Source of the DNA: Metabacillus sp. FJAT-52054
GTDB lineage: Bacteria; Bacillota; Bacilli; Bacillales; Bacillaceae
Assembly: GCF_037201815.1 (NCBI RefSeq)
Contig: NZ_CP147407.1
Coordinates: forward strand, 1,054,001 to 1,118,000
Reading direction: 5' to 3'
Length of the DNA stretch: 64,000 nt
A model generated the notes under the pieces. The model saw only the letters and a list, made by a program, of their open reading frames with translations. It did no database searches and was not told where the DNA came from. Positions 4,023 to 7,654 of the stretch are shown one piece after another. The position numbers and the translations under genes were made by a program. Numbering within the stretch: position 1 is the stretch's first letter; each line of letters starts with the position of its first letter.

Positions 4023-5273
4023 TTAAGCTACCCGGGGGATAAGAATAATAAATTCCGTCCCCTTATCCTTTTCACTGTTAACTTGTATTTTCCCTTGAAA
4101 AGAACGGACTATTTGAAAACTTACCATCATTCCTAATCCTGTTCCGCTTTCTTTTAAGGAATAAAACGGAGATCCGAGCCGCTCCATCTGGTTTTTTGTC
4201 ATACCAATTCCCTGGTCCTTAATGGTAATCATAATATTCCCGTCTTCAGTAGAAGCACATGTAATCCAGACAATCCCGCCACCCGGCATAGACTCTATCG
4301 CATTTTTGAAAATATTAATCAGTGATTGGTTCAATTTTTGAGGATTGGCATAAATCCAGCAGTTCTCCTGAATATTCGTTTTAAATTCAACATTATAGTT
4401 TAGGGAGTAGCTTTGCATGATGCTGACCGCCCTCTGCAGCTGATTACCTGCGTTGATTCTCTGGCTATGATTTACAGTTGGTTTACCGAAAGATAAAAAA
4501 TCATCAATAATTTCATTTGCACGATCTAATTCTTCAATAGAAATTTGAAGGTATTCCTTTTTTTTGTTTGGCATTTCAGGGTCGTTTAGCAGCTGAAGGA
4601 AGCCTCTGGTTACTTGCATCGGATTTCTGATTTCATGAGCAAATACACTAGCCAGCTCACCTATCACCCGGAATTTTTCTGAGTTTTGCATGTCTGACCG
4701 CAGCTTCTGTATTTCTCTAATAGATTCATTTAACATCGTAAAGAACCATGTGATGGCTAATACAAAGATTAGATGAATCATCTGTACTTTGAGATAGTCT
4801 ATGGAAAATCCCTTTAACAATCCGAAAATGGAAATCCCTGTGGAAATATAGAAAAAAGATAGCCCTACAGCCATTTTAACTCGTCCATCTTTATTCGAAC
4901 GTGCAAAGGACTTTTGAAAATATAGTAGAACAGGCAGTGATATGGATAAGACAATAACAGTCGTATAAAATCCTATACTAATTCCAAAATAAAGGCGATA
5001 CAGGATGATAAGGGCTGACAGAAAGACGCCTGGCCAAAACCCGCCGTATAATATTCCGAATAGCAGAGGGATAATCCTCAGATCCAAACGGGCATTTTGA
5101 CCAAAACTCACTGGGAAGGACATGCATAACAGTATTGAAATACCCCACAAAACAGCCATGATGACCTTTCTGTTTTTATGGCTCTGTACCTTCTCCGTGA
5201 CAAGAGTAAAATAAATGAAAATAGGTATGGAAATAAGTGTTAGCTGCAGCAAAAAATCCTTAATTATATTCAT
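4023..5273 (-). CDS. KinB-like sensor histidine kinase
   Basis: 416 residues. The N-terminal ~180 residues form about six membrane helices, including LDLRIIPLLFGILYGG, which resembles the 5TM-LYT sensor domain of KinB-type sporulation kinases. A short linker (about 185-205) leads to the H-box FAHEIRNPM with phospho-acceptor His213. Then come an N-box (NIFKNAIESM, ~320-329), G1 (DQGIGM, ~353-358) and a glycine lid ending GTGLGMM. There is no response regulator next to it, as expected for phosphorelay kinases that feed Spo0F; that role is inferred. It is transcribed divergently from the GerP-like spore cluster. The minus-strand leader contains TATAAT-like elements. Confidence 0.85.
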   Translation of the reverse strand: MNIIKDFLLQLTLISIPIFIYFTLVTEKVQSHKNRKVIMAVLWGISILLCMSFPVSFGQNARLDLRIIPLLFGILYGGFWPGVFLSALIILYRLYFGISIGFYTTVIVLSISLPVLLYFQKSFARSNKDGRVKMAVGLSFFYISTGISIFGLLKGFSIDYLKVQMIHLIFVLAITWFFTMLNESIREIQKLRSDMQNSEKFRVIGELASVFAHEIRNPMQVTRGFLQLLNDPEMPNKKKEYLQISIEELDRANEIIDDFLSFGKPTVNHSQRINAGNQLQRAVSIMQSYSLNYNVEFKTNIQENCWIYANPQKLNQSLINIFKNAIESMPGGGIVWITCASTEDGNIMITIKDQGIGMTKNQMERLGSPFYSLKESGTGLGMMVSFQIVRSFQGKIQVNSEKDKGTEFIILIPRVA

Positions 5274-5444
5274 CTTGGCTACCTTCCCTATTCAGTTCTT
5301 TAGCTGAATTCTTAAAATACATTCCATTCAGCCTGTTTTCTTATAGAGAAAAAAAGGATTATAGTAGTTATTATACTTTAAAGTTATCAGAATTTGTCGA
5401 CGATTAAATCTGACTTTCCATTTTCTTTTAATGCAAGTCCATTC

Positions 5445-5472
5445 ACACTACCCAGCATCCATACATATAGTA
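5445..5472 (+). promoter_or_regulatory. Candidate SigmaK promoter of the GerP-like operon
   Basis: The -10 element CATATAGTA (5464-5472) fits CATAnnnTA exactly. An AC dinucleotide at 5445-5446 lies 17 bp upstream, as expected for mother-cell SigmaK promoters. The first gene begins about 35 bp downstream. Confidence 0.55.
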
Positions 5473-5507: not shown

Positions 5508-5750
5508 GTGCCAGTTTCCGTCGTTTTTAATCAGATTAACGTAGTAAGCATGGCGGCAAATTCCATTATTTCTTCTGGACAGAATAGCCAGCCTGACTGG
5601 AATGCCCAGGGGAAATTTAATTCAGGGAACGGGAATTACGTGAATTCTTGCGCGATCGGGTGTACGAACATTATCAATGATCAGGATTTATTCGATATGG
5701 CGATTTCGCAGCCGGAAAATATTAATCCGCAGCCGACCGCTCAATTTTAA
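5508..5750 (+). CDS. GerP-like small spore protein 1
   Basis: 80 residues from a GTG start at 5508, 8 bp after GGAGG; the longer upstream reading has no ribosome site. It shares with its four neighbours the pattern: short beta strand (VVFNQINVVSM), small-residue turn, SGQNSQPDW, then FNSGN and IINDQDLFD. The last part resembles the FNTGD...DxDVxDQ ending of GerPA/GerPF spore-coat permeability proteins, so I place it as a divergent GerPA/PF-like protein. Unlike the others it lacks the GFG motif and has two cysteines (SCAIGC). A candidate SigmaK promoter stands upstream, and gene 2 follows after 8 bp. Function in coat passage of germinants is inferred by family resemblance only. Confidence 0.7.
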   Translation: MPVSVVFNQINVVSMAANSIISSGQNSQPDWNAQGKFNSGNGNYVNSCAIGCTNIINDQDLFDMAISQPENINPQPTAQF

Positions 5751-5758
5751 GAAATAGT

Positions 5759-6010
5759 ATGAAAAATTTAACCATTCAATTTACCAATATAAATATCTCT
5801 GCACTGTCCTCGAATTCGGGTGTTTTTACGGGAACCAATTCCCAATATGATTGGACCGTCAGTATGAAGAGCAATGCAGGATTCGGGAAAATCATTGGGG
5901 AAAATAACGTTTCAATCAACAACGTGAATATTGTGCATGATGACGATGTGATGGATTCCGATTTTACTCAAAACCAGGAATCGAATGATCAGCCTGTCTA
6001 TCAAAGTTAA
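5759..6010 (+). CDS. GerP-like small spore protein 2
   Basis: 83 residues. Aligns with proteins 1, 3, 4 and the tail of protein 5: LTIQFTNINISALSSNSG, FTGTNSQYDW, then NAGFGKIIGENN and NIVHDDDVMD. The N-x-Q-x-x-W and GFG...GNN core is the shared signature, and the acidic DDDVMD recalls the DxDVxDQ ending of GerPA/GerPF. Asparagine is strikingly abundant. It starts 8 bp after gene 1 with only a weak TAAGAAA ribosome site, so translational coupling is likely. A terminator closes this two-gene unit. Confidence 0.7.
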   Translation: MKNLTIQFTNINISALSSNSGVFTGTNSQYDWTVSMKSNAGFGKIIGENNVSINNVNIVHDDDVMDSDFTQNQESNDQPVYQS

Positions 6011-6013
6011 TCC

Positions 6014-6044
6014 GAAGACCATCTTTTCCGGATGGTTTTCTTTT
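6014..6044 (+). terminator. Terminator after the two-gene GerP-like unit
   Basis: GAAGACCATC pairs with GATGGTTTTC over 10 bp (one G-T pair) around a 7-base loop, followed by T residues. Confidence 0.75.
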
Positions 6045-6135
6045 GGATTGAGGTCATACTTTAGCGTTGCATCTTATATATATCTAATAAGTAGAGCAAT
6101 GGTCCGTGGACAAGCATAAGAAAGGGGCTCTTTCA

Positions 6136-6354
6136 ATGCCAAAGATAGATTTTCAATCAGTGACAGTCAAGCTGATTCAAAATAGCTCTGGTTTGTTTTA
6201 TGGCCAGAACCTCCAGTATAAATGGAAAAATAAATCGAGGGTTTATGAAGGGTTTGGAAGAGTGAGCGGAAATTCCAATAAAATATTTAATAATGTTACG
6301 TTGGATGAAACGCAGGAGAAGAAAGCAGAAGACTCTAATAAGAAACAGAACTAA
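6136..6354 (+). CDS. GerP-like small spore protein 3
   Basis: 72 residues from the ATG at 6136, 8 bp after AAAGGGG; an earlier GTG at 6106 has no site. The core reads PKIDFQSVTVKLIQ, GLFYGQNLQYKW, GFGRVSGNSNKIFNN, then a charged tail. It is closest to protein 4 on the opposite strand (GQNLQ/GRNLQ, GFGxxSGN, NEIF/NKIF), suggesting a recent inverted duplication. Its stop codon overlaps the stop of the convergent protein 4 gene (shared CTAA). A CATACTTTA sequence at 6055-6063 looks like a SigmaK -10, but no clear -35 accompanies it. Confidence 0.7.
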   Translation: MPKIDFQSVTVKLIQNSSGLFYGQNLQYKWKNKSRVYEGFGRVSGNSNKIFNNVTLDETQEKKAEDSNKKQN

Positions 6355-6614
6355 AGGGCCCGTTTTCCTTTGGTGACTTGCTGATACACCTTTTCTGGTG
6401 ATTTTTTCAAATGATCGTGAAGAACAAGGTGTGAATTATGAAAAATTTCATTGTCATTGCCAGATATGGTGCCGAAGCCGGAATGATGGCTGTCTAGCGA
6501 TGAAGTCCAATTAATCTGCAGGTTTCTTCCTATGAATATACCTGCATTATCTGCAATTTCATGCACATTCAAGTCTTTAAAATTGATTTCAGGGGAATGT
6601 AGGTTAATTCTCAT
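6351..6614 (-). CDS. GerP-like small spore protein 4
   Basis: 87 residues. The core PEINFKDLNVHEIADNAGIF, IGRNLQINW, GFGTISGNDNEIFHN aligns residue for residue with protein 3, followed by a His/Lys-rich tail instead of the acidic tail of proteins 1 and 2. The ATG at 6614 is preceded by GGGAGG. It reads on the minus strand, overlapping the end of gene 3 by the stop codons and diverging from gene 5. It has the best SigmaK promoter of the cluster, which makes late mother-cell expression and a coat location likely. Function otherwise unknown. Confidence 0.7.
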   Translation of the reverse strand: MRINLHSPEINFKDLNVHEIADNAGIFIGRNLQINWTSSLDSHHSGFGTISGNDNEIFHNSHLVLHDHLKKSPEKVYQQVTKGKRAL

Positions 6615-6657
6615 ATTTCCTCCCTCAATACAAAATGTCAGTCCGCCAGGCTCATTT

Positions 6658-6687
6658 TATAATATGACGCAGCTGGGCGGAACGTGC
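6658..6687 (-). promoter_or_regulatory. SigmaK-type promoter of GerP-like gene 4
   Basis: On the minus strand a -35 GCAC (6684-6687) is followed after exactly 17 bp by CATATTATA (6658-6666), a full match to CATAnnnTA. The gene starts about 44 bp downstream. Confidence 0.65.
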
Positions 6688-6704
6688 AAAAGGGATGAAA
6701 CGGA

Positions 6705-7352
6705 ATGGCATCGGATGAAAAGGCCTGGTTAGAACTTCTTCAGCGAATCGAGAAAAGATTGGAAGCGATAGAGAGAACGGTTAAAAATACTCAGAGCCGC
6801 GTGCACCAAACTTTTCATATTGAACACATTGAGTCAATGAACATTCAAGAATTAACCTACCATTTAGACAATGTAGATGTGAAGCAGCTGAGCGGGACGA
6901 TGAATATAGGAAATACGTTTCCTTACTCCGCAAATACTGCCCGGCATGTCAAACCCGAAAATCAGTCTAAAGAAGAGATATATATTCGAATCAATGGAAA
7001 GAACATACCCTATCAAATCGGTAAACCGCAGAAGGAACTTCAGGAAGATGATGGAAAACCGCTTTCTGCGAACTTCACCATCGGAGACATTCATATTGGA
7101 GCCGTAGAGGATGCGTCTGCCGTTAACTTCGGCAATAACTTTCCGACAGATTTTAAAAGCAGTAAAAAGCATAATCAGGGATTTGGCAACATCCTTGGCA
7201 ATGGAAATGATATTCATGATATCCTTTCCCATCAGGAGGAAAGGGATGTTACAGAGGTCTTCAGCGACAGTCCGGATCAGTTGCAGCCTGAATGGCTGAA
7301 ATGGCTGAAGGAGCAAAAGAATGACGGGGAGGAAGAAGGGGAACCGGAATGA
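6705..7352 (+). CDS. GerPC-like coiled-coil protein fused to a GerP-like small domain
   Basis: 215 residues. Residues ~5-30 form a coiled coil (WLELLQRIEKRLEAIERTV). Residues ~36-72 (IEHIES ... VDVKQLSGTMNIGN) resemble the GerPC signature that I recall as ending in a LDGTLNIG-like segment. A linker follows. Residues ~120-180 carry the same motif as the four small neighbours: LSANFTIGDIHIG, FGNNFPTDF, GFGNILGNGNDIH. The C-terminus is acidic. The protein therefore appears to join a GerPC-type assembly part to one copy of the small-protein domain, which would make it the scaffold for the cluster. Its ATG follows AAAGGGATGAAACGGA. It is divergent from gene 4 and ends at a strong terminator. Function is inferred. 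Confidence 0.7.
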   Translation: MASDEKAWLELLQRIEKRLEAIERTVKNTQSRVHQTFHIEHIESMNIQELTYHLDNVDVKQLSGTMNIGNTFPYSANTARHVKPENQSKEEIYIRINGKNIPYQIGKPQKELQEDDGKPLSANFTIGDIHIGAVEDASAVNFGNNFPTDFKSSKKHNQGFGNILGNGNDIHDILSHQEERDVTEVFSDSPDQLQPEWLKWLKEQKNDGEEEGEPE

Positions 7353-7355
7353 AAT

Positions 7356-7399
7356 AAGGAGCTGCTGCTGAAAAAGATATTTCAGCAGCAGCTCCTTTT
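7356..7399 (+). terminator. Terminator after the GerPC-like gene
   Basis: An 18-bp near-perfect stem beginning AAGGAGCTGCTGCTGAAA, with a 6-base loop and TTTT at the end. Confidence 0.85.
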
Positions 7400-7401
7400 G
7401 A

Positions 7402-7654
7402 GGTGCCAGTCCCGCACTCTATTACCGAAATAAAGCTCCGGCACGAGCTCTGCAAACCGTTGATGGGCAAGGGTTTGAGAGGAGATGTCTCTGTCCCGTT
7501 CTGCGGTGAAGCATCGCGTGACTGACCCGGTGCCAGTCCCGCACTCTATTACCGAAATAAAGCTCCGGCACGAACTCTGCAAACCGTTGATGGGCAAGGT
7601 TTGAGAGGAGATGTCTCTGTCCCGTTCTGCGGTGAAGCATCGCGTGACTGACCC
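7402..7654. repeat. Two tandem copies of a ~127-bp element
   Basis: Copy 1 (7402-7528) and copy 2 (7529-7654) are almost identical: they differ by one G in a GGG run and one G/A change. Each begins GGTGCCAGTCCCGCACTC and ends GCGTGACTGACCC. Such GGTGCCAGTC...GACTGACCC ends recall interspersed elements of Bacillus genomes. Short minus-strand frames through it have no ribosome site, shift frame between copies and are not genes. Confidence 0.85.

Follow-up and report, generated by a model that had tools for sequence, protein, structure and literature searches.

Five adjacent small genes of Metabacillus sp. FJAT-52054, found within a 64,000-nucleotide stretch of its genome (the window), encode members of the GerP superfamily, and the set is real, conserved and probably sporulation-specific. 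In our main reading, to which we give a probability of about 0.6, this GerP-superfamily set is predicted to be driven late by sigma-K and likely builds a coat sub-assembly that adjusts both the coat structure and the passage of small molecules. Homology, linkage and promoter motifs are observed directly in the sequences. From them we infer a coat location, complex formation and a permeability role.

The passage of germinants through the spore coat is still not well understood; the chief system on record for it is gerP. The GerP proteins reportedly reside in the inner coat and depend there on SafA and GerPA. A second set with a GerPC-like part of its own means that the GerP building block is used beyond the operon.

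The original prediction placed four proteins of 72–87 residues and a fifth at 5508–7352, and the open reading frames are found there, the fifth with 215 residues (Table 1). The genes p1 and p2 probably share one transcript. For p3 the ATG was chosen over a GTG at 6106 because ATG is the start in most relatives, and the tail-to-tail overlap of p3 and p4 is 4 nt.

Table 1. Genes, putative promoter elements and possible terminators of the five-gene set, in window positions.
Feature	Position	Strand	Remarks
Sigma-K-type motif of p1-p2	5444..5472	+	CAC at 5444-5446, 17 nt, CATATAGTA at 5464-5472
p1	5508..5750	+	80 aa, GerPA/PF-like, GTG start
p2	5759..6010	+	83 aa, GerPA/PF-like, starts 8 nt 3′ of p1
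Terminator-like hairpin after p2	6014..6040	+	weak: 3 such sites in the region against 2.3 expected in shuffles
Possible sigma-K -10 element upstream of p3	6055..6063	+	CATACTTTA, no good -35
p3	6136..6354	+	72 aa, GerPA/PF-like
p4	6351..6614	-	87 aa, GerPA/PF-like, convergent with p3
Sigma-K-type motif of p4	6658..6686	-	-35 CAC at 6684-6686 (GTG on +), -10 CATATTATA at 6658-6666
p5	6705..7352	+	215 aa, GerPC-like half joined to GerPA-like domain
Perfect 18-bp inverted repeat directly 3′ of p5	7356..7397		likely terminator

Two features flank the set. Directly after it, a unit of about 127 nt with the 5′ end GGTGCCAGTCCC stands in two tandem copies (7402–7654); its two parts are 97% and 100% identical between the copies, and a search of the window that allowed up to 3 mismatches returned no further match to its first 45 nt. 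On the other side, an apparent membrane sensor histidine kinase gene (4023–5273, minus strand) is divergent from p1, and related kinases occur near 15 loci, possibly by chance. The histidine-kinase similarity group beside 15 loci and an ABC-transporter-type group beside 10 loci were both rejected as partners, as each was judged a common family.

The five proteins had been said to share one pattern and to resemble GerPA and GerPF, and both statements agree with the profile searches. With single sequences in phmmer, p1 found p2 (5e-11), p3 found p4 (3e-11), and p4 found p3 (1e-11) and p2 (4e-10), while p5 reached genes of the p3 and p4 types in relatives, with E of 6.5e-6 to 2e-4. A profile seeded with the five GerPA-like segments converged on 357 domain hits, 287 of them distinct, from related loci; the window proteins score in it with E of 7e-16 to 1e-21, partly by construction.

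The Pfam gerPA model gives E of 0.24 for p1, 0.63 for p2 and 0.029 for the C-terminal half of p5, and the Pfam search returned no match for p3 or p4. All window proteins miss the curated PF10676 cut-off of 27.3 bits, with 10.8–15 bits or nothing. The relatives secure the connection: PF10676 at E<=1e-3 was matched by 11 of 25 cluster proteins, with no other family matched. By hhalign, these 25 align with five GerPA/PF-type proteins of the same genome (two from the standard operon and three from a second locus; all five pass the PF10676 cut-off) at a probability of 95.7 and E of 1e-8. The window proteins are thus homologous to GerPA/PF, yet below the curated family cut-offs, and homology by profile methods places them in the GerPA/GerPF superfamily. 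NCBIfam held no relevant family for the five or for three non-HSP20 relatives.

Some relatives are proteins of about 165–190 aa with two tandem GerPA-like domains, in Neobacillus and its kin, Ammoniphilus and Clostridia (L064, L066, L068, L072-L074, L076-L081, L083, L086-L089, L092-L094). Four of 20 such tandem proteins match PF10676 at E<=1e-3, and the one of L081 passes the cut-off with 30.2 bits. The AlphaFold2 model of a tandem relative (35 sequences; pLDDT 41.6, pTM 0.30) was too poor for use.

The GerPC-like N-terminal half proposed for p5 is recognisable, below the family cut-off. It covers about residues 1–112, with a predicted helix at 3–30, likely a coiled coil, followed by LTYHLDNVDVKQLSGTMNIG; the GerPA-like domain spans about 124–181. 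Pfam GerPC (PF10737) matches p5 at E of 8e-4 and 19.9 bits, short of the 22.4-bit cut-off, over model positions 3–80 of 174. Matches at E<=1e-3 occur in 4 of 22 p5-type proteins, and one of the 22 matches EncFtn-like instead or as well.

Among 20 unfused relatives of the GerPC-like half, 8 match GerPC at E<=0.01, with 26.3 bits as the top score; seven unrelated families are each matched by one or two of the 20. The motif type common to the GerPC-like parts is LxFxLDxLDIxELSGxLNIG. Thus the GerPC homology of p5 and its relatives is partial and N-terminal only. AlphaFold2 with 22 sequences gave p5 a mean pLDDT of 53.4 and a pTM of 0.22, with high confidence only in the N-terminal helix, and a PDB sequence search with the p5 alignment returned nothing relevant (best E 0.2).

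The two halves of p5 occur elsewhere as separate genes. They are adjacent in L021, L022, L059, L061, L062, L063 and L065, and separate with other members between them in Neobacillus. Since neighbours are fused in p5, their products may well touch each other. The window form is likely the derived one, with the parts fused and no HSP20 in the cluster. The fusion, the HSP20 genes and the reach beyond Bacillus had escaped the original prediction because other genomes were needed to see them.

A standard gerP operon with full-length GerPC lies elsewhere in the same genome (C1:1189885-1191871), so the five-gene cluster is a separate set, as had been supposed from the window. Another GerP-like locus (C1:3284763-3285554) has one GerPA-type and two GerPF-like genes, then an HSP20 gene and then a gene for a 160-aa protein, which matches the GerPC-like profile built here and has no Pfam GerPC match. 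Over the wider interval C1:3284763-3286600 (L004, L169), the GerPA-type gene is on the minus strand and the HSP20 protein has 158 aa. A GerPA-like gene of 79 aa at C1:2009910-2010119 (L006) is also near an HSP20-like gene of 134 aa.

The claim that the cluster has its own promoters is in line with the sigma-K-type motifs preceding p1 and p4; none was assigned to p5. Related loci, among them L043, L045, L050 and L054, have counterparts of the p1-p2 motif ahead of their p1. We searched with a strict pattern, [AC]AC-N15-18-CATANNNT, in letters that we take to be the sigma-K consensus (a CAC-type -35 and the -10 element). The element lengths and spacing, and the membership of gerPA and cotM in the B. 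subtilis sigma-K regulon, come from an excerpt of PMC517825.

Within 100 bp upstream, the strict pattern precedes 59 of 241 members and, in the same loci, 11 of 499 control ORFs, with a Fisher value of 6e-21 that is overstated because related species are not independent. Within 120 bp, 64 of 175 first genes have it and none of 64 followers does (controls, 18/499 within 150 bp), and with about one locus per genus it precedes 18 of 58 first genes. These strict-pattern counts leave out L001-L042, and a required minimum of 100 bp upstream kept 175 of 177 first genes. The pattern is present in 38 of 53 loci and absent from 111/175 first genes and 15/53 loci; in the seven named clostridial loci it precedes 2 of 20 first genes.

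Three of four leading genes at the genome's remaining GerP-like loci carry the strict pattern, standard gerPA included. Over 28 loci, most of them distant from the window lineage, it was found at 15/63 first genes, 0/55 followers and 7/118 controls, and a looser AC-N15-18-CATA at 30/63, 0/55 and 12/118, respectively. This count takes HSP20 genes as members and includes at least one genome twice (L085 and G357 (L095) are the same contig). Among HSP20-like genes, 5 of 69 have the strict pattern. A sigma-E pattern was rejected, with 1/241 members and 0/63 first genes of the 28-locus set. The sigma-K-type motifs support a predicted expression late in sporulation.

By pattern, 53 loci were found among 84,980 species genomes; they include those of Metabacillus, Priestia, Peribacillus, Rossellomorea, Neobacillus, Paenibacillus, Alicyclobacillus and clostridial genomes. 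The gene order and strands of the window are kept in 15 of the 16 fused-type loci L043-L058, L058 being the exception; the count sets aside L042, from the same species, and L060, a fragmentary locus in which the p5 relative lies in two overlapping frames and the other genes of the set are missing.

All five genes are under purifying selection. Of 20 comparisons with four relatives, 18 returned a dN/dS value; these are 0.02–0.30, imprecise where dS is near or above 1, as many are. The ranges are 0.02–0.11 for p1 (3 comparisons), 0.03–0.07 for p2, 0.11–0.26 for p3, 0.06–0.22 for p4 and 0.15–0.30 for p5 (3 comparisons). The most constrained is p1, with 95% identity to its L043 counterpart versus 63% for p5. 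In one congener (G073), the set is apparently broken: at C1:1015805-1016082 only the C-terminal part of p5 is matched, in two pieces of different frames, and no cluster-profile member is found there at E<=1e-8.

In a midpoint-rooted FastTree phylogeny of 182 domains, a p5-type clade mixes clostridial and bacillar proteins (35 members, support 0.92), and a clade of p1-type and tandem second domains likewise mixes the classes (27 members, support 0.90). The paralogues are therefore either old or have moved between the classes by horizontal transfer. Within the family, the window-type set is patchy, with 37 of 80 genomes having it, but GerPC is in all 80, so the set is accessory where gerP exists.

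Across 398 sampled genomes of the phylum, 27 have cluster-profile matches (E<=1e-3), 13 have proteins over the PF10676 cut-off and 9 over the GerPC cut-off. Twenty of the 23 strong-cluster genomes (best hit below 1e-10, out of the 27 with any hit) are outside the family. Among these 20, only G153 has GerPC over the cut-off, located at its own cluster, and G137 has two PF10676 genes far from its clusters. SpoIVA is found in 25 of the 27 cluster-match genomes, the two without it being 72% and 75% complete; this association is weak because 336 of the 398 have SpoIVA anyway.

Ten named genomes were tested for GerPC or PF10676 besides the set. In the seven clostridial ones (L070, L074, L081, L085, L090, L091, L092), no GerPC is over the cut-off, all PF10676 matches at E<=1e-3 are on the contig of the cluster and no GerPA/PF match lies outside the set; such absence is no proof, because most are metagenome assemblies of unstated completeness. 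Alicyclobacillus fastidiosus (L061) has neither GerPC nor PF10676 over the cut-offs. Ammoniphilus (L064) and Terrihalobacillus (L059) have standard GerPC in addition to the set.

When recurring neighbours were sought, many unfused clusters proved to contain or adjoin a gene of the HSP20/alpha-crystallin type. With Pfam PF00011, two of three examples were over the cut-off and one just short, and five such proteins reached only general small-heat-shock models of NCBIfam, below cut-off. The 23 strong-cluster genomes have 74 HSP20 matches, and 18 of the 23 have one no more than 2 kb from the cluster, where random HSP20 placement predicts 0.13, one of the two clusters of G137 being used.

The five without a nearby match are G000 (the window genome), G049 (fused type), G196, G357 and G251, the last having a nearby HSP20 only by the profile built here (L097). 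Near the named loci, HSP20 is found at 10 of 53, all unfused (L059, L061-L065, L074, L081, L090, L092). None was found in the flanks examined, some of them short, of the fused L042-L058 and the Neobacillus loci, nor anywhere in the 64-kb window. Hence one part of the family shows a strong HSP20 link and the remainder none.

Mechanistically, there is a genetic tie between several GerPA-like proteins and one GerPC-like part, a helix with an ELSGxLNIG-type motif, which the window lineage has joined to one of those proteins. By the logic of the fusion, the GerPC-like part and the GerPA-like domain would touch in the assembled complex. The promoter motifs suggest that the mother cell makes the proteins late, during coat formation, and the GerPC-like helix may be the scaffold on which the GerPA-like proteins come together as a mixed layer or pore of the coat. 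From its linkage, HSP20 could be a coat component or an assembly helper in many other species, the cluster of the window lineage having none. By analogy with gerP, such a layer would ease germinant access to the inner membrane.

The same sequences could instead encode purely structural proteins of the coat or an outer layer, with no role in germinant passage and with the GerP resemblance reflecting a shared building block. Such a role would suit the varied settings of GerPA-type genes, some of which lie near HSP20 genes in this genome, and also the patchy distribution, as expected of accessory surface proteins. The GerPC-like partner is kept in most mapped loci, however, as in the gerP operon, and we hold a purely structural role to be rather unlikely.

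It is improbable that the genes are spare copies backing up standard GerPA and GerPF in the manner of gerPF2 and gerPF3 of B. anthracis, where, by a partial view of PMC2817736, the phenotype needed the joint removal of three gerPF-family genes. The set has diverged deeply and has a GerPC-like part to itself, its p1-type and p5-type lines span Bacilli and Clostridia, and it occurs without a GerPC match outside the cluster in the 20 sampled and the seven named clostridial genomes. Less credible still is a role outside sporulation or a state of relics: the seemingly broken copy of the congener would fit it, but the dN/dS range and the sigma-K-type motifs argue against it, as does, weakly, the SpoIVA association. 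The coat sub-assembly affecting permeability is the reading we retain.

More tentatively, the window may hold the lineage form of an old and widespread GerP-HSP20 coat module, made under sigma-K across Bacilli and Clostridia and consisting of a GerPC-like scaffold, two to five GerPA-like proteins and often HSP20, with the gerP operon as a later Bacillales offshoot. We doubt this broader version more than we trust it. If it is true, spore formers believed to lack a coat-permeability system would have theirs in this module. To our knowledge, gerP is held absent from Clostridia. Candidatus Arthromitus is described as lacking gerP in an excerpt of PMC3533761.

The clostridial copies extend the question of germinant access to genomes without detected standard GerPC. 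The HSP20 link is a testable lead on the assembly of such coat proteins, and the p5 relatives present in Priestia megaterium bring a laboratory test within reach. In the open-access literature, with most subscription journals outside it, titles and abstract starts gave nothing on the five-gene set or a GerP-HSP20 cluster, and 'GerPC' and 'Hsp20' came together only in a genome description.

Among known systems, CotM and CotP of B. subtilis are HSP20/alpha-crystallin coat proteins. They are comparable in that cotM belongs to the sigma-K regulon, as the same excerpt of PMC517825 has it, and HSP20 genes accompany many cluster relatives, whereas the window has no HSP20-like gene. B. anthracis has two extra gerPF genes of overlapping function, gerPF2 and gerPF3, according to part of PMC2817736; like the window genes they are of GerP type and outside the operon, but they are described there as gerPF orthologues, and the window has a five-gene set below the Pfam cut-off with a GerPC-like part.

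GerP proteins are inner-coat proteins thought to ease germinant access, according to part of PMC11841064. With gerPABCDEF of B. subtilis, B. cereus and B. anthracis, the set shares small GerPA/PF-type proteins, a GerPC-like part and a sigma-K-type motif. The difference in make-up that had been pointed out is confirmed: unlike the six genes of that single operon, the five are on both strands, with no GerPB-, PD- or PE-type gene recognised among them, and a short GerPC-like part is fused to a GerPA-like domain in one of them.
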